This document shows, in pieces, positions 11,204 to 61,671 of a stretch of DNA of 64,000 nucleotides; position 1 is the first letter of the stretch; the number at the start of each line of letters is the position of its first letter. The stretch is from contig NZ_LT627736.1 in the NCBI RefSeq assembly GCF_900102005.1, positions 1,302,001-1,366,000 on the forward strand, given 5' to 3'. Made by a program: the position numbers and the translations under genes. This DNA comes from Microbacterium sp. LKL04. GTDB taxonomy: Bacteria; Actinomycetota; Actinomycetes; Actinomycetales; Microbacteriaceae. The notes below the pieces were generated by a model, which saw nothing but the letters and a program-made list of their open reading frames with translations, did not search any database and was not told where the DNA came from.

Positions 11204-11220
11204 TCACGTCATCGCCCGCC

Positions 11221-11234: not shown

Positions 11235-11250
11235 GTAGCAGGCGCTCTGC

Positions 11251-11256: not shown

Positions 11257-11262
11257 GAGGGG

Positions 11263-11760: not shown

Positions 11761-11767
11761 GCGCGAC

Positions 11768-14497: not shown

Positions 14498-14504
14498 CGC
14501 CTCC

Positions 14505-14510
14505 AGGCTA
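14505..14510 (-). promoter_or_regulatory. Candidate -10 of the ABC-F gene
   Basis: TAGCCT on the minus strand, 7 nt before the ATG. Its TAG is also the stop codon of the upstream small membrane protein gene. Confidence 0.5.
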
Positions 14511-45155: not shown

Positions 45156-45161
45156 TAGGCT
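45156..45161 (+). promoter_or_regulatory. Candidate leaderless promoter -10 of the kinase/FHA module
   Basis: TAGGCT, 6 nt before the GTG at 45168. It would start transcription of FHA protein, kinase, Ig-like protein and further genes. Confidence 0.5.
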
Positions 45162-45167
45162 GTGACC

Positions 45168-46289
45168 GTGTTCCGTTACCCCACCCCGACGCTCGCCGCC
45201 GAGGCGGGGTACGCCATCGCCGGTGATCGCTTCGCCATCCTGCTCGGTGCGGGCGTCACGGAGGGCGTGATCGCACGGTTGTGGAACGCCGCGGTGGCAG
45301 AGACCGCCGTCCTCGAGGACGTCCTCAGCGTGCTCGTCGCCGGTGGCATCCACGACCTTCCAGACTTCGCCGTGGCCGAGTTCCCCGACGACGATGCGCA
45401 GCCCGTCCGCGTTGCCGTGCGCGGTGCCGCGATCGTCGAGACCTCCGACCGAACGCGCGTGTCGGGAGCCGACGCGCGGACGTGGATCGAGACGGCGCTC
45501 GCGGGGGCCGTCGGCATCCGTCTCGCCCTCGAGACCGGGCCCGCCGGCGGCGACCTGTTGCCTCTCGGCCTCGGTGTCACGCGCGCCCACGAACTGTCAT
45601 GGGGCCGCCCTTTCCCCGCCGGCCGCGAACCGGATGCCGACGTCACGCCCGCCGCCGCGGGCGAGGTTCCCCCGGGGACCCTCGCGCCCGTGACGGTCGC
45701 GGTCCCCACGATCGCCCCTGCGGCCCCGGCTCCGCCCGCGCCGGCGCCGGTGGCCCGCGATGAGGAGATCGACGTCCTCCAGACCATCTCGGTCGACCGG
45801 AGCCTCTTCGCGCGGCTCTTCGAGGATGAGGACGACCTCGAGCTCCCCGACTTCCTGCGCGACGACGCGCGCGGCGGAGATCTTCCCGACGAGCGCACGC
45901 GGTTCGGCTCGCGCCGCGGCTCGCGTCCGGCCGCACCCGCGACGGCCTACGGACTCCGACTTCCGGGCGGCCGGACGGTCCCGCTCGACAGGCCCGTCGT
46001 CCTCGGTCGCGGGCCGCGCGCGGGCGAGCACCCCGACGCCCGCATCGAGCGGGTGTCCTCGCCGCACAAGGAGATCTCCGGGACGCACCTCGAGGCGATC
46101 CTCGACGGGGCGACCCTGGTGGTCCGCGACCTGGACTCCACGAACGGCACGATCGTGCGCCCGCCCACCGGTGCGGCTGCACTCCTGCGCGGAGGTGCGG
46201 CCTCCCGCGTGCCGGTCGGAACGGAGCTGGACCTCGGCGACGGTGTCACCGCCGTGTTCGACGCGCTCGAACCCTCGACGGCGGGATGA
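45168..46289 (+). CDS. FHA domain protein, first gene of the phospho-signalling module
   Basis: 373 residues. An N-terminal region (1-150) of unknown fold is followed by a Pro/Ala linker (about 160-205), an acidic stretch (LFEDEDDLELPDF) and a C-terminal FHA domain (about 265-365) with intact phosphothreonine contacts: VVLGRGPRAGEHP, SSPHKEISGTH and DLDSTNGT. It should read phosphothreonine made by the adjacent kinase. GTG 45168 is chosen because of the TAGGCT box; GTG 45162 is the alternative and would fall within the spacer. The stop overlaps the kinase ATG (ATGA). Confidence 0.88.
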   Translation: MFRYPTPTLAAEAGYAIAGDRFAILLGAGVTEGVIARLWNAAVAETAVLEDVLSVLVAGGIHDLPDFAVAEFPDDDAQPVRVAVRGAAIVETSDRTRVSGADARTWIETALAGAVGIRLALETGPAGGDLLPLGLGVTRAHELSWGRPFPAGREPDADVTPAAAGEVPPGTLAPVTVAVPTIAPAAPAPPAPAPVARDEEIDVLQTISVDRSLFARLFEDEDDLELPDFLRDDARGGDLPDERTRFGSRRGSRPAAPATAYGLRLPGGRTVPLDRPVVLGRGPRAGEHPDARIERVSSPHKEISGTHLEAILDGATLVVRDLDSTNGTIVRPPTGAAALLRGGAASRVPVGTELDLGDGVTAVFDALEPSTAG

Positions 46290-47443
46290 TCGAGCGCGTG
46301 TCCAGCAGGCTCCCCTCTTCGCCGCCCGGGCTGTCCGGGTTCACGTACGTCCGTCCGCTGGGCGCGGGTGGCTTCGCCGACGTGTTCCTCTTCGAGCAGA
46401 ACCTCCCTCGGCGCCCCGTCGCGGTGAAGGTGCTGCTGGAGGACGTGGTCGACGAGAACGTGCTGCGGATGTTCAACGCCGAGGCCGATGTGATGGCCCG
46501 CCTGAGCGCCCATCCGTCGATCCTCACGATCCACGAAGCGTCGGTGTCGGCCGACGGGCGGCCGTACCTCGTCATGGAGTACTGCCCCACCTCGCTCACG
46601 CACCGTTACCGCCGCGAGGAGATCCCCGTCGCGGAGGTCCTGCAACTGGGCGTCAAGATCGGCTCCGCGCTCGAGACGGCGCACCGAGCGGGACTCCTGC
46701 ACCGCGACATCAAGCCGTCGAACATCCTGATCACGGCGTTCGGATCGCCCGTCCTGTCCGATTTCGGGATCGCTGCCGCCGTCGAAGCCCGCCCCGACAC
46801 GGAGGAGGTCTTCGCGATGTCGGTGCCGTGGTCCGCACCCGAGGTCGTCGACGAGCGCGTCTCCGGATCGATCGCCGCCGAGGTCTGGAGCCTCGGCGCC
46901 ACCGTCTACTCTCTGCTGGCAGGCCGCAGCCCCTTCGAGCGTCCCGGCAGGGGCCAGAACACCCGCGACCAGCTGAAGGCCCGCATCCGCAAGGCCGTCT
47001 ACACGCCGATCGGGCGCCCGGACGTCCCGGGTGAACTGGATGCCGTCCTCGCGCGGGCCCTGAACCGCGACCCCGCCGCGCGACATCCTTCCGCCGCGGC
47101 GTTCGCCCACGACCTGCAACTGATCCAGCACCGGATGGGCCTGCCGCACACGCCGCTCGAAGTCGCGGTGGACGAGTGGGCGTCCGCCGGGGCGACCGTC
47201 GACTTCGCCGACGACCAGCCACGCGGCCCGGTGCGACCCGCCGTCGAGTACGCCTCGTCCCGTCCCGAGCGACGCCGGAGTACGCCCGCACGCCGGCCCG
47301 ACGAGGGCACGATCCTGGCGGGCGCGGAACCCGCATCGCGGATGCGGCGCGGCACGGTCATCGCGCTGATCGTCGGCGCCGGCGTCCTCGTCGCCGCGGC
47401 GACTGCTGCCACGACGTTCGTCCTTCTCGGCGGAGCCGGCTGA
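46286..47443 (+). CDS. Membrane Ser/Thr protein kinase (Hanks type) without sensor domain
   Basis: 385 residues. Catalytic domain at about 20-285: glycine loop GAGGFADVF, Lys48 (VAVKVL), Glu in the C helix, HRDIKPSN (139-146, Asp141) and DFG (159-161). A juxtamembrane region with DEGTILAG (Thr342) follows, then one helix (about 356-380) and only about five outside residues, so there is no PASTA or other sensor. The segment before APE is FAMSVPWSAPE, lacking the usual GT and activation-loop threonines. It is coupled to the FHA gene; the giant Ig-like gene starts directly after it. Confidence 0.93.
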   Translation: MIERVSSRLPSSPPGLSGFTYVRPLGAGGFADVFLFEQNLPRRPVAVKVLLEDVVDENVLRMFNAEADVMARLSAHPSILTIHEASVSADGRPYLVMEYCPTSLTHRYRREEIPVAEVLQLGVKIGSALETAHRAGLLHRDIKPSNILITAFGSPVLSDFGIAAAVEARPDTEEVFAMSVPWSAPEVVDERVSGSIAAEVWSLGATVYSLLAGRSPFERPGRGQNTRDQLKARIRKAVYTPIGRPDVPGELDAVLARALNRDPAARHPSAAAFAHDLQLIQHRMGLPHTPLEVAVDEWASAGATVDFADDQPRGPVRPAVEYASSRPERRRSTPARRPDEGTILAGAEPASRMRRGTVIALIVGAGVLVAAATAATTFVLLGGAG

Positions 47444-50400
47444 ATGGCGCGCGCGAGCACCGAGCGACCGCGCGTGCGCAGGTCGACCTGGATCGGCGCG
47501 GGCGCCGTCACGGCGGTCGTCGCCGTCGTCGGCACGCTCGCGGTCGTCTGGCCCGGTTACGACGCGCAGCAGACGCCCGTCGAGGATCCGACCGTGTGGG
47601 CGCTGCAGACCGGCGCCGGCAGCGGCTACGCGCGCGTCAACCTCGACCTCCGCGAGATCGACACCGTCAAGCAGGTCGTCAACGGCACCCAGGTCGCGCA
47701 GACCTCCGACCGCCTGTTCGTGTTCAGCGAGGGCGGCTCCGCCTTCTCCGACGTCGACCTCGCCCAGCCCGCCGATCTGACCGGCGAGGACGAGGACACG
47801 ACGGCGCCGACGCCCGCGGGCACGGTCGAGATCGTGACCGCCGGGGACGCGATCGTCTACCGCACCGAGGGCGGCGGCGTCTTCGGAGCGACCCTGTCCG
47901 GCGGCGGCGCAGCCTCCCCCATCGACCCCTACGCAGAGGTCGAACGCGACGACGACGAGCAGGCGCCGCGCTTCTCGGCATCCGCTGTCTCCGTCGACGC
48001 GGACGGCGTCGTCTACGCCTACTCTGCCGCCGAGAAGCTCATCGTCCGCGCCGACGCCGCCACCGGACGCATCGTCGGGCAGGACGAGACCCCCATCGCC
48101 CCGGTCGACGCCCAGCTGAGCGCCGTGGGCGGCCGCTGGGTCCTCTACGACGTCACGACCGGCGACGTGGCCGTCCGCGGCCGGGACGGCCTGGTGGAGA
48201 CCGCCCCGCTCCCCGGCGCGGTGCTGCAGCGCGCGGCGACCAGCGGCGACGCCGCCTACATCGCCGACCCGACCGGCCTGACGCGCGTCCCGATCGAGTC
48301 GGGCACCGCGGACCGCCCGGTGGAGTCCCCGGGCCTCGGCACGCCCGCCGTCCCTGCGCCGTCAGGGAACACCGTCCACGCTGCATGGCTCGGGGACGGC
48401 ACCGGCGGCGGCAGCCTCTGGTCCAGCGCTCGACCGGATGCGACCGTTCCCCTCGACTACGCCGGTGCCGACATCGGCGACGGCGTCGACCCGGTGTTCG
48501 TCGGCAACGGATCGAGGCTGGCCGTCAACGACCGCGGGTCGGGCTGGGTGTGGCGGGTGCCCGACGGCGCGATCGTGCCGTCGTCGCAGCAATGGCGCCC
48601 CGAGGACACGAGCGAAGCCGCGCCCGACACCGAGGACGACGTCGAGCGGGTCCTCGAACCCAAACCGCCCGTGGCCGTCGATGACGAGTTCGGGGTCCGC
48701 GCCGGCTCCGTCGCTCTGCTCCCGGTGCTGCTGAACGACCACGATCCGAACGAGGACGTCCTCAGCATCGACGTCGGCGGCTTCGACGGAGTGGATGCCG
48801 CCTTCGGCCGCGCGAGCATCACCGGCGCCGAACAGCAGATCGCCCTTGACGTCGCCCCCGACGCGACGGGGACGACGACGTTCCGGTACCGCGTCACCGA
48901 CGGCACGTCGTCGGGAGGACGTCTGTCGGAGTATGCGACGGTCACCGTCCGCGTGATTCCCGAGGCGGAGAACTCGCCTCCCGTCTGGTGCGGCGTCGCC
49001 GAGTGCCTCGCCACCTGGCCCGTCCTGTCGGTGGCGCCGGGCGGAACAGTGTCTGCCGACCTCCTCCGGGGCTGGGTGGATCCCGACGGCGACCCGGTCT
49101 ATCTCGCCGGGATCGACGGGGCGCCCTCCGTGGGGACGGCCACGACCTCCCCCGAGGGGGAGTTCACGTACCAGCATCCCGATCCGAGCGCGACGGAGGC
49201 AGCCAGCATCCCGGTCCCGGTCGTGGTTTCGGACTCGCGCGGCGCCACGACCACGCAGTCCGTCACGGTACAGGTGACCCCCGCCCCCGACCTGCGGGCC
49301 GAGTCGTTCGCGGTGACCGGCGTGGTCGGCGAACCGCTGGACGTCGACCTGACCCCGTACGTCACCGGAGCGTCGGGTCCGCTCACGATCGGATCCCTCG
49401 TCGCCCTGGACTCCGAGCGCGCGACGGTGACGCCCACGCCCTCGGCCCTGCGCATGACCTTCGCGGCACGCGAGGCCGGGTCGTACGTGGTCCAGTACTC
49501 CGTGCGCGATGGCGTGACCGAGGCATCCGCCCTCGCGCGGGTGACGATCCGCGAACCCGCGGACACCGTCGTGACGACGCCGCCGCTCACCGCCTTCGTC
49601 CGCCCCGGCGAGGATGCGACGATCGACGTCGCGTCGGCGGCGGCGAACCCCGCCGGGCTCGTCCTCCTGCTCGAGGACGTCCGTCCCGACAGCGACCCGA
49701 CGGCGTCGCTCAGCGTCGACCTCGTGGGGCAGAGCCTCCTCCGCGTCAGCGGCACCACCGGCGACGGCCGGCCCGGACGCCTGGGGGTCGTCCGGTACAC
49801 GCTCACCGACGGAGGTGGAGACGCGACGACCGCCGAGGGCGAGGTCACCGTCATCCTGCTGCCGGCGGGTTCCGCGGAGCAGCCGATCGCCGTCGACGAC
49901 GCCGTCACCGTGCGCAGCGGCACGCAGATCGACATCCCCGTCCTCGACAACGACAGGGCGCCCGCGGGTGCACTCATCGGCATCGACCCGGGGTCCGTCG
50001 TCAACGAGACCGGCGGCGGTCTCGCCTTCGCCTCGGGACGCGTGCTCCGCTACCTCGCACCGCGCGAAGCGGGCACCTACGCCCTCACCTACACGATCTA
50101 CCGGGTGGGCTTCCCCGAGGTCGTCGACACGGCGCGCGTGACCGTGACCGTCACCGGCGGCGACGACAACCGCTCCCCGGTGCCGCGCACCCTCGTCGGG
50201 CGCGTCGTCGCAGGACAGTCCGTCACCGTTCGCTTCGATCCGTACGCGGTCGACCCCGACGGCGACGACGTCGCCCTCGAGACCATCACCACTCAGCCGG
50301 AGCAGGGTTCGGCCGCCGTCTCCGCCGACGGCCGGTCGATCGTCTACACGAGCAGTGAGGCCACGTCGGGGCAGGTGCGGTTCGGGTACCAGGTGAAGGA

Positions 50401-53374
50401 TGCCCGTGGCGCCACCGGTGTCGGCGAGGTCCGCGTGGGCGTCATCGCCGGTCAGAGCGACCCCAGCCCCGTGACCTTCAGCGACTACGTCCAGGTGCAG
50501 GCGGGAGCCGACAGCACCGTCGTCGTCCGGCCAGCCGACAACGACGTCGACCCGTTCGGCAGCGCTCTCGAACTCACCGACGTCGTTCCGAACGCACCTG
50601 CGGACAGTCCCGAATACGCCGCGCTGGCCGATCGGGTCAGCGTCGACGGCCCCGCCGTCACGGTCCGGGCGGGTACGGCCCTCGGGACGTTCTCCTATTC
50701 GTACGAGGTCGCCAATGCCGACGGCGACACCGCGATCGGTCTGCTGGTCGTCAAGGTCGTGCGGGACCCGGTGCCGGACCACCCCGTCGTCTCGGACACG
50801 GTGCTGACGATCGAGGACCGGGACCAGTTCCCGACCGGTGTCGACGTCCTGAGCGGACGGGTCGCCTGGACCGGCGGGGACCCGTCGTCACTGACGCTGC
50901 GCCTGTGGGGCGCCCCGGATGATCTGCGCGTGTCCGGCTGGGAGATCTCGGGCGAGCTGCCCGCGCAGAGCCGCCTCATCCCCTTCGAGGTGACCGGAAC
51001 GGCTTTCGACGGCACCGAGGTCACGACGTACGGATTCCTGCGCGTCCCCGGGACGGACGAGGTGCGTCTCACGCTTCGCGCAGGGGCCGAGCCGCTCCGT
51101 GTGCGCGAGGGCGAGAGCGTCGACGCGGATCTCGCCGAGCTCGTCGCCCTTCCCGAGGACGCGACGCTCGTGCTGGACGGCACGGGGACGAAAGCTGGGG
51201 GCGCCCGCCCGGAGGCGACCTGCCGCATCGTGTCGGGCACCGTCATCCGCTACAGCGCGGGACGCGGCGCACCGTGGACCGATTCGTGCATCGTGACGGC
51301 GCGGTTGGCGGGGGGAGACACCCCGACCGTGCTGCCCGTGCCCGTGCAGATCGAGGCGGAGATCCCGCAGCCGTCGCTGCGCAGCGCATCGATCGGGGTG
51401 CGACCGGGGCAGACGCAGACCTTCGACCTCACGCGCATGGTGCGATGGGCCGGTGCCGCCGACGAGAGTGCCCTCGACGTCGAGATCTCGTACCGCGGCG
51501 ACCAGTTCGACGTCACGCAGAAGGATGCCGTCGTGACGGTGACCGGGCGTGACGAGGCCCGTCCCGGACGCGAGGAGGAGGTCACGGTTTCGTTGCCGAG
51601 CCATCCCGACGCCGCCGCCGCGAGCCTCATCCTCACCGTCGGTCCGTCGCCTTCGACGCTCCCCCGCGGCGGTTCCGCGGTGCAGACGTGCTCGCAGGCC
51701 GACGGCACCACCTCCTGCACGATCGACGTCGTCGGCGCCGACGGCGAGGTCAATCCCCTCCCTGGGACGCCGCTGCGCGTGGTCGGCGCATCGAGCTCGG
51801 GCAACTGCGACGGCGTGCGCTTCGCGCCCGCGGGAGACCGCGCCGTCCGCGCCAGCTGGAGTTCGGATGCCGAGGGGGCGGCGCGCTGCGCCGGGACCTT
51901 CGTCGTCGAGGACGCCCAGGGCCGACAGTCCAGCGGCGACCGCAACGGCTCCATCGTCCTGGACCTGCGGGGGCTCCCCGCGAACCCGACGCGCGTCGAA
52001 TGGACCGCCTACAGCGAGGACACGGTGAGCCTCCGAGTGACATCGGATGCCGGTTCCTACCCCGCGGTCCAGGGCTACCGCATCACGACGGGCGGCCGCG
52101 AGGTCGCGACCTGCCCCGCGTCGGGCGTGTGCGCACCGATCTCCGCGCCCGTCGGCGAGCAGCGCGTGTACGAGGCCCGCGCGACGAACGACGTCGGCGC
52201 GTCCCGCGGTGCCGTCCGGACGACGGCCTGGTCGTACCGCCCGCCTGCACGGCCCGGAGCCGCGTCGTTCCAGCCCGAGCCGAACGGACGCGACGGCGGC
52301 CTGGCCACGATCACCGTGACAGGCCTGGACGACACGACGGGGACGGTGCGGCTGTCGGGCGGAGTCGCGGGAAGCGCGACGCAGCCGGTCAGCGGAGGGA
52401 CGGCGACGTTCACGGGCTATCGCGTCGGCTCCAACGAACCGACCCAGCTCACCGCGACGCCGCTCACCGAGTTCGAGCTGCCGCCCATCGCCGGCGGCTC
52501 CAGCGAGGGACGGGCGCTGGAGCTGTCGGCGCACGGAGTGGGGGCACCCACGATCGAGCTGTCCGAGACGACGACGTCGAGTTCGATGACGGTGTCGGTC
52601 CGCGTCACCGGCCAGAGCGCCGGGACCGAGCCGCTGTTCGGATTCAGCGAGACTCCCGCCTGCACTCCGAACAGCCGCTCGTCCAGCCAGAGATTCGACG
52701 CGGTGGCGTTCCAGCGCAAGACCATCCACGTCTGTGTGACAAGCACGTTCAACGGCGCCGCCGGGTTCGGTGTCACGAGCGATCAGATCACCGCGCGGCC
52801 GATCGGCAGTGTCGACGCACCCCCACGCCTGACCTACACCGTCTCCTCCAGCCCCAGTGGGAACCAGGGCTCCGGCTTCACCTATGCGGCGAGCGGGCAC
52901 AGCGACGCGGGAAAGCCGCCGTTCGAGGGAGCACAGCTGCGCTACCGGCTCAACGGTCGATCCGTGGACGCGTTCGCACCGCGAGTCAACCAGCCCAGCG
53001 ACCGCTGGGGCGCCGTCTGGTGCGACACGTTCCTCGGGTTCGACGCGGAATGCTCCGGCGAGACGCCCATCGAGCCCTCGTCCGGAAGCGCGGACTGGCC
53101 CGTCTACGTCGCCACCGACGACATCCCCTCCTGCCGATCGGACGAGGCGGTACGGGACTGGTTCCCCCGCGACATCGGGCGCAATGTCGCGACCGTCGAG
53201 ACGAACGTGCGCACCGGTGACCTCGGCCCGGTGTCGGTCACGTATACGATCCGTTGGACGGGCGCGCTCGCGGAGCTGCAGAGCCCTCCGGGTCTCACCG
53301 TCGACTGCCGACAGATCGCGCCACCGGATCCCGAGCCGGAGCCCGATCCCGACCCCGAGGCGCCGGCGGGCTGA
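47444..53374 (+). CDS. Giant membrane-anchored Ig-like/cadherin-like repeat protein
   Basis: 1,976 residues. A short basic cytoplasmic tail (1-14), one membrane helix (about 15-36), then a very large extracytoplasmic part. Residues about 50-395 look like a beta-propeller. From about 405 to 1,300 come tandem Ig/cadherin-like modules marked by PVAVDDEFGVRAGS, IAVDDAVTVRSGTQ, DNDRAP and DPDGDD. Later beta modules follow, including a fibronectin III-like one near 1,510-1,600, and the C-terminus is acidic and Pro-rich (PEPEPDPDPEA). Probable role: envelope scaffold or surface structure served by the MoxR-DUF58 genes. No enzyme motif seen. The ATG follows the kinase stop directly. Confidence 0.85.
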   Translation: MARASTERPRVRRSTWIGAGAVTAVVAVVGTLAVVWPGYDAQQTPVEDPTVWALQTGAGSGYARVNLDLREIDTVKQVVNGTQVAQTSDRLFVFSEGGSAFSDVDLAQPADLTGEDEDTTAPTPAGTVEIVTAGDAIVYRTEGGGVFGATLSGGGAASPIDPYAEVERDDDEQAPRFSASAVSVDADGVVYAYSAAEKLIVRADAATGRIVGQDETPIAPVDAQLSAVGGRWVLYDVTTGDVAVRGRDGLVETAPLPGAVLQRAATSGDAAYIADPTGLTRVPIESGTADRPVESPGLGTPAVPAPSGNTVHAAWLGDGTGGGSLWSSARPDATVPLDYAGADIGDGVDPVFVGNGSRLAVNDRGSGWVWRVPDGAIVPSSQQWRPEDTSEAAPDTEDDVERVLEPKPPVAVDDEFGVRAGSVALLPVLLNDHDPNEDVLSIDVGGFDGVDAAFGRASITGAEQQIALDVAPDATGTTTFRYRVTDGTSSGGRLSEYATVTVRVIPEAENSPPVWCGVAECLATWPVLSVAPGGTVSADLLRGWVDPDGDPVYLAGIDGAPSVGTATTSPEGEFTYQHPDPSATEAASIPVPVVVSDSRGATTTQSVTVQVTPAPDLRAESFAVTGVVGEPLDVDLTPYVTGASGPLTIGSLVALDSERATVTPTPSALRMTFAAREAGSYVVQYSVRDGVTEASALARVTIREPADTVVTTPPLTAFVRPGEDATIDVASAAANPAGLVLLLEDVRPDSDPTASLSVDLVGQSLLRVSGTTGDGRPGRLGVVRYTLTDGGGDATTAEGEVTVILLPAGSAEQPIAVDDAVTVRSGTQIDIPVLDNDRAPAGALIGIDPGSVVNETGGGLAFASGRVLRYLAPREAGTYALTYTIYRVGFPEVVDTARVTVTVTGGDDNRSPVPRTLVGRVVAGQSVTVRFDPYAVDPDGDDVALETITTQPEQGSAAVSADGRSIVYTSSEATSGQVRFGYQVKDARGATGVGEVRVGVIAGQSDPSPVTFSDYVQVQAGADSTVVVRPADNDVDPFGSALELTDVVPNAPADSPEYAALADRVSVDGPAVTVRAGTALGTFSYSYEVANADGDTAIGLLVVKVVRDPVPDHPVVSDTVLTIEDRDQFPTGVDVLSGRVAWTGGDPSSLTLRLWGAPDDLRVSGWEISGELPAQSRLIPFEVTGTAFDGTEVTTYGFLRVPGTDEVRLTLRAGAEPLRVREGESVDADLAELVALPEDATLVLDGTGTKAGGARPEATCRIVSGTVIRYSAGRGAPWTDSCIVTARLAGGDTPTVLPVPVQIEAEIPQPSLRSASIGVRPGQTQTFDLTRMVRWAGAADESALDVEISYRGDQFDVTQKDAVVTVTGRDEARPGREEEVTVSLPSHPDAAAASLILTVGPSPSTLPRGGSAVQTCSQADGTTSCTIDVVGADGEVNPLPGTPLRVVGASSSGNCDGVRFAPAGDRAVRASWSSDAEGAARCAGTFVVEDAQGRQSSGDRNGSIVLDLRGLPANPTRVEWTAYSEDTVSLRVTSDAGSYPAVQGYRITTGGREVATCPASGVCAPISAPVGEQRVYEARATNDVGASRGAVRTTAWSYRPPARPGAASFQPEPNGRDGGLATITVTGLDDTTGTVRLSGGVAGSATQPVSGGTATFTGYRVGSNEPTQLTATPLTEFELPPIAGGSSEGRALELSAHGVGAPTIELSETTTSSSMTVSVRVTGQSAGTEPLFGFSETPACTPNSRSSSQRFDAVAFQRKTIHVCVTSTFNGAAGFGVTSDQITARPIGSVDAPPRLTYTVSSSPSGNQGSGFTYAASGHSDAGKPPFEGAQLRYRLNGRSVDAFAPRVNQPSDRWGAVWCDTFLGFDAECSGETPIEPSSGSADWPVYVATDDIPSCRSDEAVRDWFPRDIGRNVATVETNVRTGDLGPVSVTYTIRWTGALAELQSPPGLTVDCRQIAPPDPEPEPDPDPEAPAG

Positions 53375-53415
53375 ACCGCCCCCGCCCGGATCACCCGTTC
53401 TTCGAGAGGAACACG

Positions 53416-54408
53416 ATGACGATCACCCAGGAGCAGAGCGCCTGGTTCGCCGAGACCTTCACCTCGCTCGTCGACAACGTCGAGCAGGTCGTGCTCGGTA
53501 AGCGCCACGTCATCGAGCTGGCCTTCACCGCCATGGTGTCCGAGGGTCACCTGCTCCTCGAGGACTACCCCGGCACGGGCAAGACCTCGCTGGCGCGCGC
53601 GATGGGACGTTCGGTCCAGGGGACGAGCTCCCGCATCCAGTTCACTCCGGACCTCCTGCCGGGCGATGTCACCGGCATCACCGTCTACGACCAGCGCCGC
53701 GGCGAGTTCGAGTTCCACCAGGGCCCGATCTTCGCCAACATCGTCCTCGCCGACGAGATCAACCGAGCGTCCCCCAAGACGCAGTCCGCCCTCCTCGAGG
53801 TGATGGAGGAAGGGCACGTGACCGTCGACGGCATCACCCGGGACGTGGGGGTCCCCTTCCTCGTCGTCGCCACGCAGAACCCCGTGGAGCAGGCCGGAAC
53901 GTACCGGCTGCCCGAGGCCCAGCTCGACCGCTTCCTCATGAAGACCTCGCTCGGCTACCCCGATCACGCCGCGACCCTGCGAATCCTCGAGGGTTCCAGC
54001 GAGGCATCCCGCGACGTGGCGCCCGTCGTCACCCCGCAGGGCGTGGTCAGCATGGCCGACATCGCGCGCGGGGGGTACCTCGCGCCGCTCGTCCTGGACT
54101 ACGTCGCTCGGCTGGTCGAGGCGACCCGTCTTGCCCGCGAGGTCCGTCTCGGGGTGAGCGTCCGCGGTGCGCTCGCTCTCACGAAGGCCTCCCGGACGTG
54201 GGCACTGGCCCACGGGCGCACCTACGTGACCCCCGACGACATCAAGGCGCTCGCGGTCCCCGTCCTCGCCCACCGCCTCATCCTGGATCCCGAGGCCGAG
54301 TTCGACGGCGTGACCGCCGAGGCCGTGATCGGGCAGGTCCTTCTGGACGTCGTCCCGCCGTCGCAGCAGGAGCGCGCGGACGAACGTCGTCAGCGAGAGA
54401 ACGTGTGA
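53416..54408 (+). CDS. MoxR-family AAA+ ATPase
   Basis: 330 residues, cytoplasmic. Walker A is YPGTGKTSLA (GTGKT at 53-57), Walker B IVLADEINRASPKTQSALLE (about 109-128) and sensor 1 LVVATQNPVEQAGTY; a lid domain follows. MoxR ATPases act as chaperones, often inserting metal or remodelling a partner that carries a VWA or DUF58 domain. The DUF58 gene follows with a GTGA overlap. ATG with GAGAGGAA upstream. Confidence 0.95.
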   Translation: MTITQEQSAWFAETFTSLVDNVEQVVLGKRHVIELAFTAMVSEGHLLLEDYPGTGKTSLARAMGRSVQGTSSRIQFTPDLLPGDVTGITVYDQRRGEFEFHQGPIFANIVLADEINRASPKTQSALLEVMEEGHVTVDGITRDVGVPFLVVATQNPVEQAGTYRLPEAQLDRFLMKTSLGYPDHAATLRILEGSSEASRDVAPVVTPQGVVSMADIARGGYLAPLVLDYVARLVEATRLAREVRLGVSVRGALALTKASRTWALAHGRTYVTPDDIKALAVPVLAHRLILDPEAEFDGVTAEAVIGQVLLDVVPPSQQERADERRQRENV

Positions 54409-55754: not shown

Positions 55755-58228
55755 CCGCCGCGCCCACCCGTCGCGACGCCCGTCGCCGTCCGGCGCCCTC
55801 GCGCACCGGCTTCTACGTCGGTCAGGCTGTCGTCATCGACCTGCTCCTGGCGGTGGGCGCGATCGCTGCCTGGCCCATTTACCGCAGCACGGCGTTCATT
55901 GTGGTCGTCTCGGCGGGCATCGCCGCGGGCCACGTCGTGGCGGCCATGGGCGTCCGGTGGCGGTGGTCGGGGTGGTGGGTCGCGCTCGCGGCGCTCGGCG
56001 CCTACCTGGCTCTGGGCGTGCCCGTTGCAGCCGCCGGGTCCCTCTCCTCGGCCGACGCCGCCCTCCGCGCCCTGGTGAGCGTCGCGACGGCCCCGGTGAC
56101 CGGGTGGAAGGACCTCCTGACCCTCGAACTGCCGCTCGGCAGTTACCAGGCGACCCTCGCGCCCACCCTCCTGCTCTTCCTCGGCAGCGCCGTCGCGGCG
56201 CTCTCGATCGCCTGGCGGGGAACGAGATGGTGGATGCCTGCGGTCGCCGTGTCGCTGGTACCCGCCGTCTTCGGGGTCGCCTTCGGCGCCCGCTCGCTCG
56301 CCGCGCCCCTGCGCGTCGGTCCGGTGGCGGTTCAGCCCGAGACACTGGTGGGTATCGCAGCTCTCGTGACCGCTCTGGTCGCCGTCATCTGGCGGACGAC
56401 CGACGAGCGCCGTCGGGCGCTCGCGACGGCGAGCGCTGCAACCGGAGTGGTGCGGGGACCCGGTGGCCGCCGACGGGGCAGCGCGGCGCGCGCTGCGACG
56501 GCGGTCGGGATGGTCGTCGTCGCCATCGCGGCCGCCGCTGCCTGGGGCCCGTGGGCTCTCGCCGACCAGCCCCGGTCGGTCGCGCGGAGTGTCGTCGACC
56601 CGATCCTCGAACTCGAACGGGCACCGAGTCCGCTGGCCGCCTACCGCGCGTCGTTCACCGATGAACGCTACGACGAGACACTGTTCACCGTGACGGCGTC
56701 GACGGGGCTCGATCGTGTGCGACTCGCGACGCTCCCGTTCTACGACGGTCGCACCGTCCGGGCGGTCGACCCGGTCACGGGCGCCGCGGACCCGATGACC
56801 TCGTTCACCCGAGTGCCCTCGAGCCTCGACGAGAGTGCCGCCGGCGCAGCCGTCGTCACGGTGCGGATGGGCACCGGCACCGGCATCTGGGTGCCGACCA
56901 TCGGCGCGCTCCGGGCGATCGCGTTCGAGGGACCGCGCGCGGCCGACTTCGCCGACGGCTTCTTCCACAACGCGGCGACCGGCGGCGCCATCGAGATCGC
57001 CGATCCGGGGCTCACCGCGGGAGACGCGTACCGGCTCGAAGTCGTCCCGGAGCCCGCCGCGGCACCCGTGGCATCCCTCGTTCCGTCGCGGACCGGACCG
57101 TCCCTGCCTGCCGAGGCTGTCCCGGCGTCGCTGACGGAGTGGATCGAGGCGCAGCAGGCGGGATCGGGAGGGAGCGGGCTCGAGATCCTGCTCGATCGGT
57201 TGCGCTCGCGCGGCTACCTGAGCCACGCGCTGCAGCTGACCCCGGGTCAGACCCCGTCGTGGCTGCAGGACCTCGGCGAGGGCGGTTTCCAATCGTCGCG
57301 AGCGGGCCACTCCGCAGACCGGATCGGTGCGCTCTTCACTCAGCTCCTCGACCGCGAGGCAGAGGCGCCCGGCGGTTCCGATGCCGACCTCGTGGCCGCG
57401 GTGGGCGACGACGAGCAGTTCGCGGTCGCCGGAATGATCATCGCCGATCAGCTCGGCTTCAACGCCCGCGTCGTGGTCGGCACCCGCCTCGCGTCCGCCG
57501 AGGACCTGCCGGTGTGCGACGAGGGCGCCTGTCGCGGCGGGGATCTCGCCGCGTGGATCGAGGTGCAGGATGCCGCCGGCCGGTGGACCCCGATCGACGT
57601 GACACCGCAGCACGAGAGCTTCCCCTCCCCCGACCTCGAACAGCGACGCGATCCCGAGAACCCGACGGATGTCCGACGGGACGAGGCCGAGCCGGTCCTG
57701 CCCGCCGACGCCTCTCCCGCCGATGGCGACCGCCCGGCGCAGGATGCGCCGGACGAACAGGCCGACCTCTCCGCGCTCTGGACGGCGGTCCGCATCGGCG
57801 GCATCTCCCTGCTCGCCGTCGTCGTCCTCGTCGGCCCACTCGTCACGGTTCTCGCGATCAAGGCGCTTCGACGCCGCGGCCGACGGCGTCGCCCTGATGT
57901 CGCCGAACGGTTCAGCGGCGGCTGGGAGGAGTACGTCGACACAGCAGTCGACCACGGATACCCCGCACCGGCGCATCTCACCCGGCAAGAGCTCGCGCTC
58001 CTCTTCGCGCAGGGTGCCGACGGGGGCGCCGGGACACGGCTGGCGACGTGGGCCGACCGCTCGGTGTTCGATGTGGCTCCCCCGTCGACGGAGGAGAACG
58101 ACGAGTTCTGGCGGATCGTCGCAGCCGAGCGTTCCCGGTTCGCCGCCGGCAAGGGCTTCTGGGCGCGACTGCGGGCGCGACTGTCGCTCCGCTCATTGCT
58201 GCCGCGCACACGGCCCCGGCGCCGATAG
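55751..58228 (+). CDS. Transglutaminase-like membrane protein (TgpA type), apparent loss of catalytic residues
   Basis: 825 residues. About six N-terminal helices (20-240), an external part with the transglutaminase-like fold (about 460-630), one helix (about 680-705) and a cytoplasmic tail, as in TgpA/DUF3488 proteins. In the usual layout the nucleophile sits in GxCExFA; here it reads GDDEQFA with Asp554. The histidine segment DAHAW is DLAAW with Ala600. Only the Asp (Asp616 in PIDVTP) remains. It is thus likely a non-enzymatic binding or structural protein. ATGA overlap with DUF58; its TAG stop is part of the next promoter box. Confidence 0.87.
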   Translation: MTAAPTRRDARRRPAPSRTGFYVGQAVVIDLLLAVGAIAAWPIYRSTAFIVVVSAGIAAGHVVAAMGVRWRWSGWWVALAALGAYLALGVPVAAAGSLSSADAALRALVSVATAPVTGWKDLLTLELPLGSYQATLAPTLLLFLGSAVAALSIAWRGTRWWMPAVAVSLVPAVFGVAFGARSLAAPLRVGPVAVQPETLVGIAALVTALVAVIWRTTDERRRALATASAATGVVRGPGGRRRGSAARAATAVGMVVVAIAAAAAWGPWALADQPRSVARSVVDPILELERAPSPLAAYRASFTDERYDETLFTVTASTGLDRVRLATLPFYDGRTVRAVDPVTGAADPMTSFTRVPSSLDESAAGAAVVTVRMGTGTGIWVPTIGALRAIAFEGPRAADFADGFFHNAATGGAIEIADPGLTAGDAYRLEVVPEPAAAPVASLVPSRTGPSLPAEAVPASLTEWIEAQQAGSGGSGLEILLDRLRSRGYLSHALQLTPGQTPSWLQDLGEGGFQSSRAGHSADRIGALFTQLLDREAEAPGGSDADLVAAVGDDEQFAVAGMIIADQLGFNARVVVGTRLASAEDLPVCDEGACRGGDLAAWIEVQDAAGRWTPIDVTPQHESFPSPDLEQRRDPENPTDVRRDEAEPVLPADASPADGDRPAQDAPDEQADLSALWTAVRIGGISLLAVVVLVGPLVTVLAIKALRRRGRRRRPDVAERFSGGWEEYVDTAVDHGYPAPAHLTRQELALLFAQGADGGAGTRLATWADRSVFDVAPPSTEENDEFWRIVAAERSRFAAGKGFWARLRARLSLRSLLPRTRPRRR

Positions 58229-58231
58229 GGT
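58226..58231 (+). promoter_or_regulatory. Candidate internal promoter -10 of the second half of the module
   Basis: TAGGGT, whose first three bases are the stop of the transglutaminase-like gene. A start near 58238 would give a leader of about 39 nt containing GGAGGA before the membrane FHA gene. Confidence 0.4.
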
Positions 58232-58276
58232 GTGCGATGCGGGACCGAGGGAACCCATGACGGAGGACGAGGACAC

Positions 58277-59494
58277 ATGCAGAGCGTGACGACGGGGAGC
58301 GTGCTCCCGATCGCCGAAGACGCCGCCGGATCGTTGGCAGGTGTCGCCGCGGTGTCACTCGTGGCCGTCGTGATCCAGCTGATCGCAGCGGTCGGCGTGT
58401 ACGTCTGGGGGTCGATGGCCCTCGCGGCCGTCTTCCGCAAGACGGACCGACCGCCGGGTCGAGCCTGGGTCCCGGTGTGGAACCTCTGGCTGCTGTTCGA
58501 ACTGTCGGGGATGAAGGGCTGGTGGGCTGCCATCCTGGTGGGCGGCGGCATCCTGACCGTCATCCTGTCGACGGTGACGTCGTCTCTGTTCGCGCAGTCC
58601 GCGCAGAACGCCGCGTTCGGCGGGGGCGGAGACGCCTCGGGCGCCCTCCTGGCCGCGGCCGTCGTCCCGGTCGTCCTCTTCTTGGTGTTCGCCGCGGCCG
58701 CCGTGATCCTGATGCTGCGCATGATGGGTCCCCTCAACCGCGGCTTCGGCCGCGGCAGCGGGTTCGTCGTGCTCGGCGCCCTGCTCCTCCCCGTCTGGGC
58801 CTCGGTGATCGGGTGGGGTTCGGCGACCTGGCAGGGCGTCCCTCGGGGCGGGATCCCCCCGACTCCGTTCGCCGCCCCGCCCGCTGCACCGGTCGCTGCG
58901 CCCGCGACCGCCGACACCACCGCCTTCGCGCCGCCGCCCGCGCCTGCGCCCGTCGCTCCCGCGCCGTCGCTCGCATCCCCGGCCCCCGTTGCGGTGCCCC
59001 TGCAGCCGGGCGCACCGGTGCCGACGAATCCCTGGTCGCCGCCTCCGCTCGCGCCCGCGACGCCGGCCGCCGCTCCGATCATCGCCGCGCCCGTCGCGCC
59101 GCCGTTCGACGCGGCGCCGGCCGCCGAGACCGGAGTCGAGGAGCACACCGTCCTCGCCGCGCACCGTCGGCCGAGCGCCACGCTCCGGCTGCCGACCGGA
59201 GAGACCGTCGCGCTCACCGCTGCCGTGATCGTGCTGGGCCGCAACCCCGCACCGCCGACGGACGAGCCGGGGGCGCAGACCGTCGCGATCGACGACGCGA
59301 CCCGTACGGTCTCGAAGACCCACGCGCTCCTGCGCCGCACGGACGACGGCTGGAACATCACCGACCTCTCGTCCACGAACGGCGTCCTCGTCGGCGACAG
59401 CGAATCCGAGATCCCCGTCGGGACGCCCACTCCCCTCGCCGGCCGGTTCCTTCTCGGCGACGCCGAACTCACCTTCGATGCGGGCGCGCGATGA
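58277..59494 (+). CDS. Membrane protein with DUF5684-like N-terminus and C-terminal FHA domain
   Basis: 405 residues. Four hydrophobic segments (about 20-52, 82-105, 122-148 and 160-180) resemble DUF5684. A long Pro/Ala linker (185-282) comes next, then EEHTVLAAHRR (Thr291) and an FHA domain (about 302-400) with VIVLGRNPAPP, TVSKTHALL and DLSSTNGVLVG, all phosphothreonine contacts present. The Thr291 motif resembles the kinase's TILAG and the repeats of the gene two downstream. ATG with GGAGGA; the stop overlaps the phosphatase ATG (ATGA). Confidence 0.87.
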   Translation: MQSVTTGSVLPIAEDAAGSLAGVAAVSLVAVVIQLIAAVGVYVWGSMALAAVFRKTDRPPGRAWVPVWNLWLLFELSGMKGWWAAILVGGGILTVILSTVTSSLFAQSAQNAAFGGGGDASGALLAAAVVPVVLFLVFAAAAVILMLRMMGPLNRGFGRGSGFVVLGALLLPVWASVIGWGSATWQGVPRGGIPPTPFAAPPAAPVAAPATADTTAFAPPPAPAPVAPAPSLASPAPVAVPLQPGAPVPTNPWSPPPLAPATPAAAPIIAAPVAPPFDAAPAAETGVEEHTVLAAHRRPSATLRLPTGETVALTAAVIVLGRNPAPPTDEPGAQTVAIDDATRTVSKTHALLRRTDDGWNITDLSSTNGVLVGDSESEIPVGTPTPLAGRFLLGDAELTFDAGAR

Positions 59495-60342
59495 CGATGC
59501 GCGAGCCCTCGCCTCTCCCGTTCGAGGTCATCAGCGGCGCCCTCACCGATACGGGGCTCCGCCGTCGCGTCAACGAGGACTCGCACCTCGCGAGCTTCCC
59601 CGTCTTCGTCGTCGCCGACGGGATGGGCGGCCACGAGGCGGGCGATCTGGCTTCTGCAGCCGTGATCGACGCATTCCGCGGCTTCGTGGGCCGCGGCGAC
59701 GTGACGCCCCAAGAGGTCGCCGATGCGGTCCACGCCGCGCATGCGTCGGTCGGTGCGATCTCCCGGCGGACGACGCGGGGCGCGGGGTCCACCCTCACCG
59801 GCATCGTGGCGGTCCAGCAGAACGGCGAGAACCGGTGGCTCGTCGTCAACGTCGGCGACTCCCGCGTGTACCGGCTGCTGTCCGAGCGTCTGGAGCAGCT
59901 CACCGTCGACCACTCGGTCGCGCAGGAGATGGTGGATGCCGGCCGGCTGGCCCGCGAGGACATGTCGTCGTTCGAGGGACGCAACGTCATCACACGAGCC
60001 GTCGGCGGCGAGCAGAGCCCCGCCGACTTCTGGCTCCTGCCCGTGGTCACCGGCGAGCGCCTGCTCGTCTGCTCGGACGGTCTGTCCGGCGAGATCACGG
60101 ACGAGGCGATCCGCGCCGGACTCCTCTCGGGAGCCTCCCCCGCCCAGACGACCGGCGCGCTCATCTCGCAGGCCCTGGCTCACGGCGGGCGCGACAACGT
60201 CACGGCGATCGTCGTGGACGTGGTGGCCGGCGGCATCCACCCCCGGCTCGAAGACACGACGGGCGGTCTCGTCACGAGCGAGCCCGCGTCCGGCACGATC
60301 GAGGTCGAGACGGTCCCCTCCCGCCGGAGACGTCATGACTGA
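59491..60342 (+). CDS. PP2C-family protein phosphatase
   Basis: 283 residues, cytoplasmic, no membrane helix. It should reverse the kinase's phosphorylations using two Mn/Mg ions. All metal-site motifs are intact: RRRVNEDSHL, VVADGMGGHEAGD, LVVNVGDSRVYRL, LLVCSDGLSGEI and GGRDNVTAIVV. The C-terminal tail is Thr-rich (EDTTGGLVTS). The gene overlaps the FHA gene by 4 nt and the repeat-protein gene by 8 nt, so writer, reader and eraser share one transcript region. Confidence 0.95.
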   Translation: MTMREPSPLPFEVISGALTDTGLRRRVNEDSHLASFPVFVVADGMGGHEAGDLASAAVIDAFRGFVGRGDVTPQEVADAVHAAHASVGAISRRTTRGAGSTLTGIVAVQQNGENRWLVVNVGDSRVYRLLSERLEQLTVDHSVAQEMVDAGRLAREDMSSFEGRNVITRAVGGEQSPADFWLLPVVTGERLLVCSDGLSGEITDEAIRAGLLSGASPAQTTGALISQALAHGGRDNVTAIVVDVVAGGIHPRLEDTTGGLVTSEPASGTIEVETVPSRRRRHD

Positions 60343-60877
60343 TCCGGTCGACGACCGCACTCATCGCGCCGACCACGAGGAACCCGACGACGAGACCCTG
60401 CTCGCGGCGCGACACGACCCGGACGACCGGACGCGTCTGGCTGAGCGGCGTTCGCCCGATGACGAGACCCGGCTCGCCGCGCGCCACACGCCCGACGACG
60501 AGACGCTCCTCGCCGAACGACGTGCGGCCGATGACGCGACCCTCCTCGCGGAGCGACGGGCCGATGAGGAGACCCGCGTGGCCGAACGGCGGGAGGCATC
60601 CGATCCCCCCGGGCGCGGTGTCGTCCACGGGCGGGCAGACACACCCCGCTCCGCCTCGACGGCGGGGACCCTGGCTTCCCGCGCGGTGTACGCACCTCGT
60701 GGCGGCGAGGCGCCGCCGGCGATCACCCGCGCTCCGGTCGCACCGCCGACCGCGACGACCCCCGCGCCCGCGGCACGTCCGCGCCGCGGTGGTTTCATCG
60801 CGATCGCGGTCGTGGGCGTGACGCTCGTCGCCGGCGCCGCGTGGGGGATCATCCAGATCGTTCAAGGGGGCATGTGA
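60335..60877 (+). CDS. Small membrane protein with seven 12-residue threonine repeats
   Basis: 180 residues; no family recognised. Residues 6-86 are a charged, probably disordered array in which DD-x-T-x-L-A-x-R recurs: Thr9, 21, 33, 45, 57, 69 and 80 are spaced 12 apart (the last 11). The middle ones read DDETLLAAR, DDETRLAAR and DDETLLAER. A Pro/Ala linker (95-150), one helix (about 153-176) and a four-residue tail follow, so the repeats face the cytosol with the kinase and FHA proteins. I infer a multivalent phosphorylation platform. Overlaps the PP2C stop by 8 nt; its TGA shares one base with the next ATG. Confidence 0.82.
   Translation: MTDPVDDRTHRADHEEPDDETLLAARHDPDDRTRLAERRSPDDETRLAARHTPDDETLLAERRAADDATLLAERRADEETRVAERREASDPPGRGVVHGRADTPRSASTAGTLASRAVYAPRGGEAPPAITRAPVAPPTATTPAPAARPRRGGFIAIAVVGVTLVAGAAWGIIQIVQGGM
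60350..60592 (+). repeat. In-frame 36-bp tandem repeat encoding threonine units
   Basis: About seven diverged units of 36 bp (last one 33 bp) inside the small membrane protein gene. The encoded register stays fixed although the codons differ, which suggests selection for the protein periodicity rather than a recent slippage array. Confidence 0.75.
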
Positions 60878-61623
60878 TGACGGAAGACATCGAGTTGACA
60901 GCCGAGACGGATGCCGCCGAGCTCGGCATCGAGTTCTGCGGAGAGTGGTTCCACCCGACGCCCGGCCAGACGTACTCGATCGGGCGCGACGCCGATCTCG
61001 TGATCGACACGAACCCGTACCTGCACCGGCGGCTGCTCGAGATCGAGTCCTCCCAGGGCATGTGGTGGCTCACCAACACGGGGCGATCGATCTCCGTCGC
61101 CCTGGCGACGTCGGACGGCGCCTACCAGGCGATGCTCGGTCCCGGCACCCGCGTGCCTCTGGTCTTCCCCGAATTGATGGTCATGTTCACGGCCGGGGCG
61201 TACACGTACGAATTCTCGATCCGCAACGGAGCCGCGCGGTTCACGGGCCGGATCACGGGGCTCGACGGCGACAGCACCGACGGCGGCACGACCATCGGTG
61301 CGGTTCCTCTGACCGCCAGTCAGCGTCTCCTCCTGATCGCGCTCTGCGAGCCGATCCTGCGCGGCGGGATGATGGGCTCGAGCCAGATCCCGACGTCGGC
61401 GAAGGCCGCGGAACGGCTCGGGTGGCCGCTGACGACCTTCAACCGCAAGCTCGACAACGTGTGCGACAAGTTCGACCGCGAGGGCGTCCAGGGGCTCCGC
61501 GGCGGCGTCGGCAAGCTGGCCACGAATCGGCGCGCACGCCTCGTCGAGCACGCGATCCTCTCGCGCCTCGTGACGGCGGCCGACCTGCCGCTGCTCGACG
61601 AACCGCAGAACACCGACCGCTGA
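60877..61623 (+). CDS. FHA-like protein with C-terminal helix-turn-helix, last gene of the module
   Basis: 248 residues, cytoplasmic. The N-terminal half has an FHA-like beta pattern: TYSIGRDADLVIDTNPYLHRRLLEI, then WWLTNTGRS. The Ser of SxxH and the STNG of true FHA domains are missing or changed, so phosphothreonine binding is doubtful. The C-terminal half (about 145-235) looks helical and winged-helix-like (LTASQRLLLIALCEPIL, SAKAAERLGWPLTTFNRKLDNV). It may link the module to transcription. The ATG overlaps the previous stop (TGATG) and a strong hairpin follows the gene. Confidence 0.78.
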   Translation: MTEDIELTAETDAAELGIEFCGEWFHPTPGQTYSIGRDADLVIDTNPYLHRRLLEIESSQGMWWLTNTGRSISVALATSDGAYQAMLGPGTRVPLVFPELMVMFTAGAYTYEFSIRNGAARFTGRITGLDGDSTDGGTTIGAVPLTASQRLLLIALCEPILRGGMMGSSQIPTSAKAAERLGWPLTTFNRKLDNVCDKFDREGVQGLRGGVGKLATNRRARLVEHAILSRLVTAADLPLLDEPQNTDR

Positions 61624-61629
61624 GCCTGC

Positions 61630-61671
61630 GCCGGCGGGTGCCGGGCGCGACGCGCGCGGGCGCCCGCCGGC
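61630..61671 (+). terminator. Hairpin ending the phospho-signalling module
   Basis: Arms 61630-61642 and 61659-61671 pair over 13 positions with one G-U (outer nine pairs GCCGGCGGG/CCCGCCGGC are perfect), loop 16 nt. It lies 7 nt after the stop and 15 nt before the next -10 box. No U-run. Confidence 0.6.

Follow-up and report, generated by a model that had tools for sequence, protein, structure and literature searches.

A PFNA-type gene cluster with a candidate phosphothreonine switch around a giant Ig-like protein in Microbacterium sp. LKL04

The PFNA operon of bifidobacteria (pkb2-fn3-aaa-atp(MoxR)-duf58-tgm-prpC-hypothetical-fha) is co-transcribed in Bifidobacterium longum GT15, its kinase Pkb2 phosphorylates the MoxR protein in B. 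longum, and FN3 is described as a glycoprotein (PMC8430577). A fragment of B. longum FN3 binds TNF-alpha, and TNF-alpha raises expression of the operon (PMC8430577, PMC10688814). PFNA orthologues are stated not to have been found outside bifidobacteria (PMC6803598) and FN3 is given as Bifidobacterium-only (PMC10688814). Here, we analyze a ten-gene cluster in a 64,000-nucleotide stretch (hereafter the window) of Microbacterium sp. LKL04, whose genome is a single contig of 2.92 Mb. The cluster carries kinase, giant immunoglobulin (Ig)-like protein, MoxR, DUF58 and transglutaminase (TG)-like genes on one strand and in the same order as the PFNA operon. Judged from its sequence it is a PFNA-type homologue and not a PFNA operon in the strict sense, because its giant protein, unlike FN3, has no fn3 domain by Pfam at E 1. 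We hold, with slightly more confidence than doubt, that the genes form one system, a PFNA-type, phosphothreonine-switched envelope module around the giant protein.

Type VII secretion systems (T7SS) offer the other close comparison. In Actinomycetota, the T7SSd subtype has a kinase, an FHA-ATPase, a small single-transmembrane (TM) protein and a large Ig-like protein, and the survey that describes it raises control by threonine phosphorylation (PMC11217815). The FHA domains of EssC in T7SSb are without the phosphothreonine residues and have a pseudokinase as binding partner (PMC9600267). In the literature library that was searched, MoxR, DUF58, FHA and transglutaminase turn up together only for PFNA, and no report was found that joins type VII secretion with MoxR, an FHA domain, a kinase and actinobacteria. 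A preliminary description of the cluster had known of no described function for the whole set, a statement that does not survive, as most of its gene kinds are those of the published bifidobacterial operon.

Gene order and conservation of the cluster

All ten open reading frames were confirmed on the + strand, spanning 45162-61623. The preliminary description of ten genes on one strand, in a given order and with mostly overlapping junctions, holds: six of the nine junctions overlap (by 4, 4, 4, 4, 8 and 1 nt), the kinase and Ig genes abut, Ig and MoxR are separated by 41 nt, and the gap between the TG gene and the membrane FHA gene is 3 or 48 nt, depending on the start. The extent given there, 45156..61671, does contain the cluster, with outer limits off by 6 and 48 bases. 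The features, in window coordinates, are:

45162-46289, +, FHA1, cytosolic, with an N-terminal domain (about 1-150), a linker and a C-terminal FHA domain (about 258-372); Pfam FHA
45885-45917, +, candidate phosphothreonine (pThr) motif PDERTRFGSRR, 5' of the FHA domain of FHA1, with F at the L/I/V/M site
46286-47443, +, Hanks-type Ser/Thr kinase; Pfam Pkinase, C-terminal tail anchor
47444-53374, +, giant Ig-like cell-anchored protein of 1,976 residues; N-terminal hydrophobic segment, Big_9/cadherin repeats
53416-54408, +, MoxR AAA+ ATPase, probably of the PFNA-type group; Pfam AAA_3, MoxR tree
54405-55754, +, DUF58 membrane protein; Pfam, hydrophobic pair at 64-102
55751-58228, +, TG-like polytopic membrane protein, predicted inactive; Pfam Transglut_core, Cys and His sites lost
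57404-57424, +, GDDEQFA replacing the catalytic-Cys motif of the TG-like protein; alignment
58232 (or 58277)-59494, +, membrane FHA protein (FHAM); Pfam FHA, DUF5684
59138-59170, +, candidate pThr motif EEHTVLAAHRR, 5' of the FHA domain of FHAM; strict motif match
59491-60342, +, PP2C phosphatase; NCBIfam, conserved motifs intact
60335-60877, +, Thr-array protein (THR) of 180 residues; array part predicted cytosolic, C-terminal tail anchor
60386-60592, +, six tandem [DE]xTx[LIVM]xx[RKH] motifs in THR; motif scan
60877-61623, +, FHA/HTH protein; predicted FHA fold (about 11-119), helical part (147-240), putative DNA-binding

Two of the proteins have relatives at 84-97% identity that carry the name Microbacterium wherever an organism is given. 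Relatives of the cluster were collected in 80 stretches, taken from genomes chosen out of a sample of 198 of the same order that contained the own genome; stretches were picked through matches to the last gene, the N-terminal part of the giant protein, FHA1 or MoxR, through the own genome's FtsK hits, or as continuations. Seven genomes with weak FHA/HTH matches (E 3e-4 to 2e-9), one of two fragments in G172, EssC hits below 170 bits and MoxR hits below 332 bits were excluded, and some retained MoxR hits (for example G079:C85) may not be system members. Core loci, defined by a giant protein, MoxR and TG, number 47 after merging of adjacent stretches, several of them incomplete where a contig or stretch stops; L007, L009 and L031, which are truncated, stand outside this set. 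DUF58 is present in all 47 and the kinase in 46, followed by FHA (36), PP2C (29), FHA/HTH (16) and an EssC-like ATPase (13). The full set of ten is not found together in every locus: the kinase is nearly constant, the FHA, PP2C and FHA/HTH genes vary, and gene order is shuffled as well.

A search of named genomes with the TG alignment matched at least 594 stretches, at least 559 of them confirmed, and the best 80 serve here as named loci; the first row of the query is bifidobacterial and the ranking is biased. These 80 belong to Bifidobacterium/Bifidobacteriaceae (68), Cellulomonas (7), an uncultured Cellulomonadaceae bacterium (1), Actinotalea (2) and Occultella (2), and relatives also occur in Brachybacterium. 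These finds run counter to the published statements that confine PFNA and FN3 to bifidobacteria. Cellulomonas, Actinotalea, Occultella, Microbacterium and Brachybacterium are not known, as a group, to be gut commensals. Hidden Markov models (HMMs) matched the giant protein in 79 named loci, the kinase in 78, MoxR in 75, DUF58 in 68, FHA in 45, PP2C in 36, and FHA/HTH and EssC in 2 each; the HMMs that recognize the bifidobacterial loci were built from other genera, except for one locus of Bifidobacteriaceae (group f4; L030). The named Bifidobacterium loci have the same core order as the window, with single genes under the HMM threshold in some. On these counts, the proposal that the kinase and the Ig-MoxR-DUF58-TG genes form one system is supported, and frequent separation of the kinase from the Ig-MoxR-DUF58 genes, which had been put forward as a sign to the contrary, was looked for and not found. 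The spread of relatives also bears on the published reading of PFNA, in which the giant protein would be a host-facing adhesin and cytokine sensor that binds host cytokines while the kinase reads host signals: the binding of TNF-alpha by the FN3 fragment and the rise in expression with TNF-alpha speak for it (PMC8430577, PMC10688814), whereas relatives in the five genera named above, the missing fn3 domain and the short C-terminal tails of type A kinases (arrangement A below) past the membrane segment make it improbable for the present system.

Three arrangements were found: A, that of the window, [FHA]-kinase-giant-MoxR-DUF58-TG-FHAM-PP2C-THR-[FHA/HTH]; B, giant-MoxR-DUF58-TG-FHA-PP2C-FHA-kinase-FHA/HTH or a rotated form; and C, FHA-PP2C-kinase-giant-MoxR-DUF58-TG-FHA-FtsK/EccC-like. 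Beside its type A cluster, the own genome has another set, similar to type B, at C1:2.664-2.680 Mb (L001, L002), and relatives have up to three sets per genome (G021, G153). The MoxR tree supports type A, which counts 13 rows including that of the window, at 100/99, type C likewise at 100/99, A and C together at 99/97 and Bifidobacteriaceae at 97/90; type B is not recovered as one clade, and ordinary rows split off by a 100/99 branch, with a weak deepest fork (29/74) and some type B rows beside ordinary ones. Kinases cluster by type in their tree, which needs 8 label changes against a shuffled mean of 33.2 and a minimum of 4, and the FHA/HTH tree places types A and B on opposite sides of a 94/90 branch, below the starred level of support.

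Could two unrelated operons, one of phospho genes and one of Ig-MoxR-DUF58-TG genes, simply lie side by side? The shuffled gene order fits such a reading, as do FHA/HTH-kinase sets that exist without Ig genes. Yet the kinase is missing from a single core locus and from two named loci, the MoxR tree and the kinase tree show the same types as groups and six of the nine junctions overlap, and we give the idea almost no credence. Chance adjacency was rejected on the locus counts together with the two trees, and for the kinase the two-operon reading is already largely refuted.

The cluster is flanked upstream by a gene for a protein O-mannosyltransferase (43549-45141, +) and downstream by one for an HrpA-type helicase (61700-). 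The O-mannosyltransferase, directly 5' of the cluster, might modify the giant protein, a possibility raised because the FN3 of PFNA is described as a glycoprotein (PMC8430577). Scans at the cluster returned no promoter and two terminators, not above shuffled sequence.

Threonine motifs, FHA proteins and a Cys-less transglutaminase-like family

The array of THR consists of T21, T33, T45, T57, T69 and T80, with a period of 12 and a last step of 11. Six motif copies compare with a shuffled mean of 0.076, and none of 500 shuffles reached six; in narrower form, the repeat is six D-[DE]-x-T-x-[LV]-x-x-R motifs. Among 790 called genes (L001-L060, some overlapping), three or more copies occur in eight, every one a type A array gene. 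The array gene follows PP2C, except in L003, where a PP2C gene was not found and the array gene follows FHAM; the L026 array gene has two copies. Outside the motif, the array proteins of different loci look mutually unlike by eye, and THR has no Pfam or NCBIfam match. By hydropathy, THR has one hydrophobic segment (155-173) with R/K on its N-terminal side, and the kinase has a single segment at 357-375 of 385 with about 10 residues beyond; because the C-terminal hydrophobic segment is preceded by basic residues, both are probably tail-anchored proteins that face the cytosol.

A looser motif stands directly before the FHA domain in many of the FHA proteins, counted here against expectations from shuffling that are a yardstick only, as related sequences share descent: on the TG side in 10 of 11 type A proteins (3.3 expected; the eleventh, in L015, has its motif cut by the edge of the examined region and was scored as a miss) and in 6 of 8 type B proteins (2.1), in 12 of 13 FHA proteins of Bifidobacterium operons (4.1), in all 28 bifidobacterial opposite-strand FHA neighbours (9.5), and in 6 of 15 type B FHA proteins between PP2C and kinase (3.1). 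In the linker of FHA1, T208 and T246 are conserved in 36 and 40 of 44 aligned rows, respectively. Read from sequence, the pre-FHA motif is a candidate, and likely, kinase site and FHA ligand. As a side observation, type B FHA proteins between PP2C and kinase (for example in L004, L006 and L022) have a recurrent linker DHDGxT[VI], and others in this interval have a CxxGHxNPPT..C..C stretch in its place.

FHA1 narrowly passes the Pfam FHA cut-off (20.9 bits against 20.7); the FHA part of its AlphaFold model (pLDDT 81) matches known FHA structures, and its fold searches are dominated by FHA hits. Its N-terminal domain was considered as a PP2C relative, a candidate that profile comparison did not support (probability 0.2, E 0.37). 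FHAM matches Pfam FHA at 30 bits and DUF5684 at 28 bits. The last gene is predicted to encode an FHA-fold protein, the N-terminal part of which takes this fold by structure prediction and is invisible to Pfam; its profile found three weak matches among PDB sequences, all to an unrelated enzyme. Of the Arg, Ser and Asn with which FHA domains contact phosphothreonine, candidates for the first and last, R37 and N67, are invariant in 69 rows, and by eye no Ser stands at its usual place.

The TG-like protein just passes Pfam Transglut_core (23.7 bits, cut-off 23), and its catalytic triad sites (Cys-His-Asp) read D, A, D, the Cys site lying within GDDEQFA. We tabulated 53 family TG frames of more than 500 residues from six-frame translation, leaving aside frames of 500 residues or less: 12 type A, 25 B/other, 5 type C, 8 of f4/Bifidobacteriaceae, which were chosen through MoxR or giant-protein matches and not through a Cys motif, and 3 of the outlying group f16. 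A catalytic Cys occurs in none of the 52 frames with a letter at the site, and all eight f4 rows have Ser there; His persists at its site in 8 of 25 B/other rows and in 1 of the 3 f16 rows. Ordinary MoxR-DUF58-TG loci, by comparison, keep Cys and His in 3 of 3 cases, including L076 of the own genome. The TG-like protein of the cluster family therefore looks like a pseudo-enzyme by sequence, and it is unlikely to be a cross-linking enzyme because the catalytic Cys and His are gone; a role in cross-linking the giant protein was rejected on the family-wide loss of Cys, with the ordinary locus of the own genome as control.

The kinase (Pfam Pkinase, 140 bits) has intact Lys, HRD and DFG motifs (VAVKVL, HRDIKPSN, DFGIA) and is on these motifs predicted to be an active Hanks-type kinase. 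PP2C scores 32 bits with Pfam PP2C_2 and 175 bits with NCBIfam NF033484 (Stp1-type), below the equivalog cut-off of 230, and keeps ADGMGGH and GGRDNVTA. MoxR matches Pfam AAA_3 at 203 bits, and DUF58 its Pfam family at 41 bits. The giant protein (Pfam Big_9, 135 bits) has by hydropathy one hydrophobic segment, at residues 17-35, and none at its C-terminus; its conserved N-terminal region of about 380-400 residues found no relative among PDB sequences at E 1, and plasmid records gave no match. In two bifidobacterial giant proteins, Pfam fn3 scores 63 and 67 bits, and in that of Cellulomonas cellasea 144. A tandem pair of giant Ig-like genes precedes one MoxR gene in L020 (3739-16231).

Neighbouring type VII secretion genes

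Many clusters adjoin a gene for an ATPase of about 1,500 residues with FHA and FtsK/SpoIIIE domains (EssC-FHA), of which two examples score 522 and 533 bits with NCBIfam EssC, below its equivalog cut-off of 778. Beside it, WXG100 genes above the Pfam cut-off were found in L040 (one, with a second just under) and in the own genome (L041). Among the 198 genomes, an FHA/HTH or system MoxR hit is no more than 15 kb away from 39 of 55 strong EssC-FHA hits and no more than 2 kb away from 28 of them. EssC and FHA/HTH co-occur in a genome table of 47/8/27/116, with a Fisher p of 3e-18 that ignores shared ancestry. In G401, of another class, PP2C-FHA-KIN-HTH-IG-MOXR-DUF58-TG-ESSC form one run of genes, and in G167, of the same genus as the window, a type A cluster runs into EssC.

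The EssC-FHA locus of the own genome (L041, C1:1852-1872 kb) encodes the FHA-ATPase, whose FHA domain has by eye the usual GR, S..H and N pattern, together with WXG100 genes and an RDD-FHA gene. Within it (C1:1852000-1871900), three identical WXG100 genes of 95 residues (997-1284, 2118-2405 and 6573-6860, all on the - strand) are interleaved with small helical genes and genes of 400-520 residues, with one weak T7SS_signal match; these genes, near EssC-FHA, may encode candidate secreted substrates. Residues 1-90 of its EssC (10097-14626, -), ahead of the FHA domain, look ubiquitin-like (YukD-like) by eye; T7SSd is reported without a ubiquitin-like protein. A further stretch of the own genome (L042, C1:1574500-1594400) has an FtsK/EccC-like gene (881 residues as called) beside PP2C and is possibly another secretion-like locus.

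Tentatively, the linkage could mean a type VII subtype outside the published a-j list, Actinomycetota-wide, with the PFNA-type module as its envelope arm. In this subtype, an active kinase would replace the EssB pseudokinase and a giant Ig-like rod would replace EsaA, the MoxR-DUF58-pseudo-transglutaminase set would build the conduit, and the tandem pThr array would be a tunable, multivalent dock for the FHA parts, EssC included; bifidobacterial PFNA would have lost the adjacent ATPase or would use one elsewhere.

Several findings count against a tie to secretion. No FtsK_SpoIIIE/EssC gene was matched in the window, and the strong EssC-FHA gene of the own genome lies 0.5 Mb from the cluster. 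EssC is adjacent in 3 of 13 type A loci (G009, G089 and G167; L009 is cut by a contig end), of 104 genomes that carry a system-type MoxR, 55 lack a strong EssC-FHA hit, and in 14 sampled f4 genomes no strong EssC-FHA hit was found (best E 1.4e-12). T7SSd has been reported in Bifidobacterium (PMC11217815), and, this notwithstanding, the lack of a hit in the f4 genomes implies that the core needs no adjacent EssC. Most of these findings would suit an envelope or cell-wall sensing module unrelated to secretion. Here the giant protein would be a sensor of the wall or of a neighbour, the phospho-relay would tune transcription, and EssC would often lie nearby owing to a common genomic hotspot or common regulation. 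The short distances between EssC-FHA and cluster genes, the single run in G401 and the type A cluster leading into EssC in G167 speak against this sensing module, and we think it unlikely.

Proposed mechanism and described systems

For the favoured module, the interactions and the directions of control that follow are what we infer from parts, motifs and linkage. The kinase would phosphorylate the Thr motifs and PP2C would strip the phosphates. The phosphorylated array of THR would then act as a multivalent membrane dock for FHA1, FHAM and the FHA/HTH regulator. In GarA and OdhI, a phosphorylated Thr before the FHA domain can fold back onto that domain; because of this behaviour, we propose that the array may compete with self-binding of the pre-FHA motifs of the FHA proteins. 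Docking could assemble or release a MoxR-DUF58-pseudo-transglutaminase apparatus by which the giant protein would be folded or gated; the phosphorylation state might reach transcription through the FHA/HTH protein. In relatives with an adjoining EssC, the dock may also recruit the EssC FHA domain; there, and perhaps here too through the distant EssC-FHA locus, the giant protein and kinase would most likely fill the places of EsaA and the EssB pseudokinase of Bacillota type VII secretion. Control by phosphothreonine of assembling or remodelling the giant protein, as the preliminary description suggested, is plausible. The one bench result found in support of the model is that Pkb2 of B. longum phosphorylates the MoxR protein (PMC8430577).

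Against this reading of one phosphothreonine-switched module stand the following points. Only type A clusters showed the Thr array; type C TG-side proteins have no excess of the pre-FHA motif (1 of 4, 0.8 expected), EssC-side FHA genes lack it (0 of 5, 0.9 expected), and the motif of FHA1 in the window, with F for L, fails the strict motif [DE]xTx[LIVM]xx[RKH]. DNA binding by the FHA/HTH protein is putative, the HTH_8 match being weak (15.2 bits, cut-off 22). Of the 47 core loci, 11 have no FHA and 18 no PP2C, and the PP2C tree follows the types partly (8 changes, shuffled mean 18.7, least possible 4). Five fetched stretches carry FHA/HTH without a giant protein; in three genomes (L038, L161-L162 and L163-L164), FHA/HTH and kinase occur without the giant-protein set, joined by PP2C in L038 and L161-L162, possibly as a simpler ancestor or a remnant. 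The annotation HMMs were built from L001-L040 and then applied to the same loci, that for EssC from two loci, and kinase matches were accepted from 40 bits.

New here are the THR array, the pre-FHA motif, the Cys-less TG family, the FHA fold predicted for the last protein and the EssC linkage. Together they join bifidobacterial PFNA, presented as a genus-specific host-immunity sensor, with the newly catalogued kinase-bearing type VII subtypes; the text of the PFNA report does not contain the term 'secretion system' (PMC8430577). Should the module prove general and tied to secretion, PFNA would have to be read more broadly than as a host-immunity device, and environmental strains would offer a way to test threonine control of type VII secretion, with the tandem pThr array and the Cys-less TG-like family as concrete features for testing.

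Four described systems resemble the cluster in part. The GarA/OdhI pathway and the type VI threonine-phosphorylation pathway have, as here, a kinase, a PP2C phosphatase, an FHA protein and a pre-FHA pThr motif. To our knowledge, neither has a tandem Thr array or a giant surface protein. The ordinary MoxR-DUF58-TG locus of the own genome (L076, C1:312000-331900) has the same three gene kinds in a row; in ordinary loci, MoxR falls on a separate branch (100/99) and the catalytic Cys and His are present, unlike in the cluster TG, and in L076 the giant-protein HMM has no match within the stretch. T7SSd and T7SSe share an FHA-bearing EssC-type ATPase, WXG100 proteins, a membrane Ser/Thr kinase and a large Ig-like protein, and T7SSe also has a PPM phosphatase and an FHA protein (PMC11217815). 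By their descriptions, the kinase and the Ig protein of the window may correspond to TsdD and TsdI, and THR, with its one hydrophobic segment, is a possible counterpart of TsdH, which is small, has a single TM segment and is unstructured in its cytosolic part; the main text of that survey has no occurrence of MoxR, DUF58 or transglutaminase (PMC11217815). In T7SSd, the FHA-ATPase lies in the same locus, which is not so in the window, and the Ig-like protein has an N-terminal signal peptide and a C-terminal TM segment, whereas that of the window has no C-terminal segment.

The closest comparison remains the PFNA operon, with which the window-type clusters share, beyond the core order, the pre-FHA D-x-T-V-L motif common in bifidobacterial loci. 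PP2C and FHA genes follow the core in part of the bifidobacterial loci and stand in a different order in the window, and in nine bifidobacterial loci the product of the gene that separates PP2C from fha is, by eye, unlike the Thr-array protein. Compared with PFNA, the window adds FHA1, a differently built membrane FHA protein, the Thr-array protein and the FHA/HTH protein. Because relatives occur in many actinobacteria, often beside a type VII machine, the system is probably more than the gut-bacterium and immune-system device of earlier work: it is homologous to an operon described from one genus, yet wider and richer, and probably has a different meaning.

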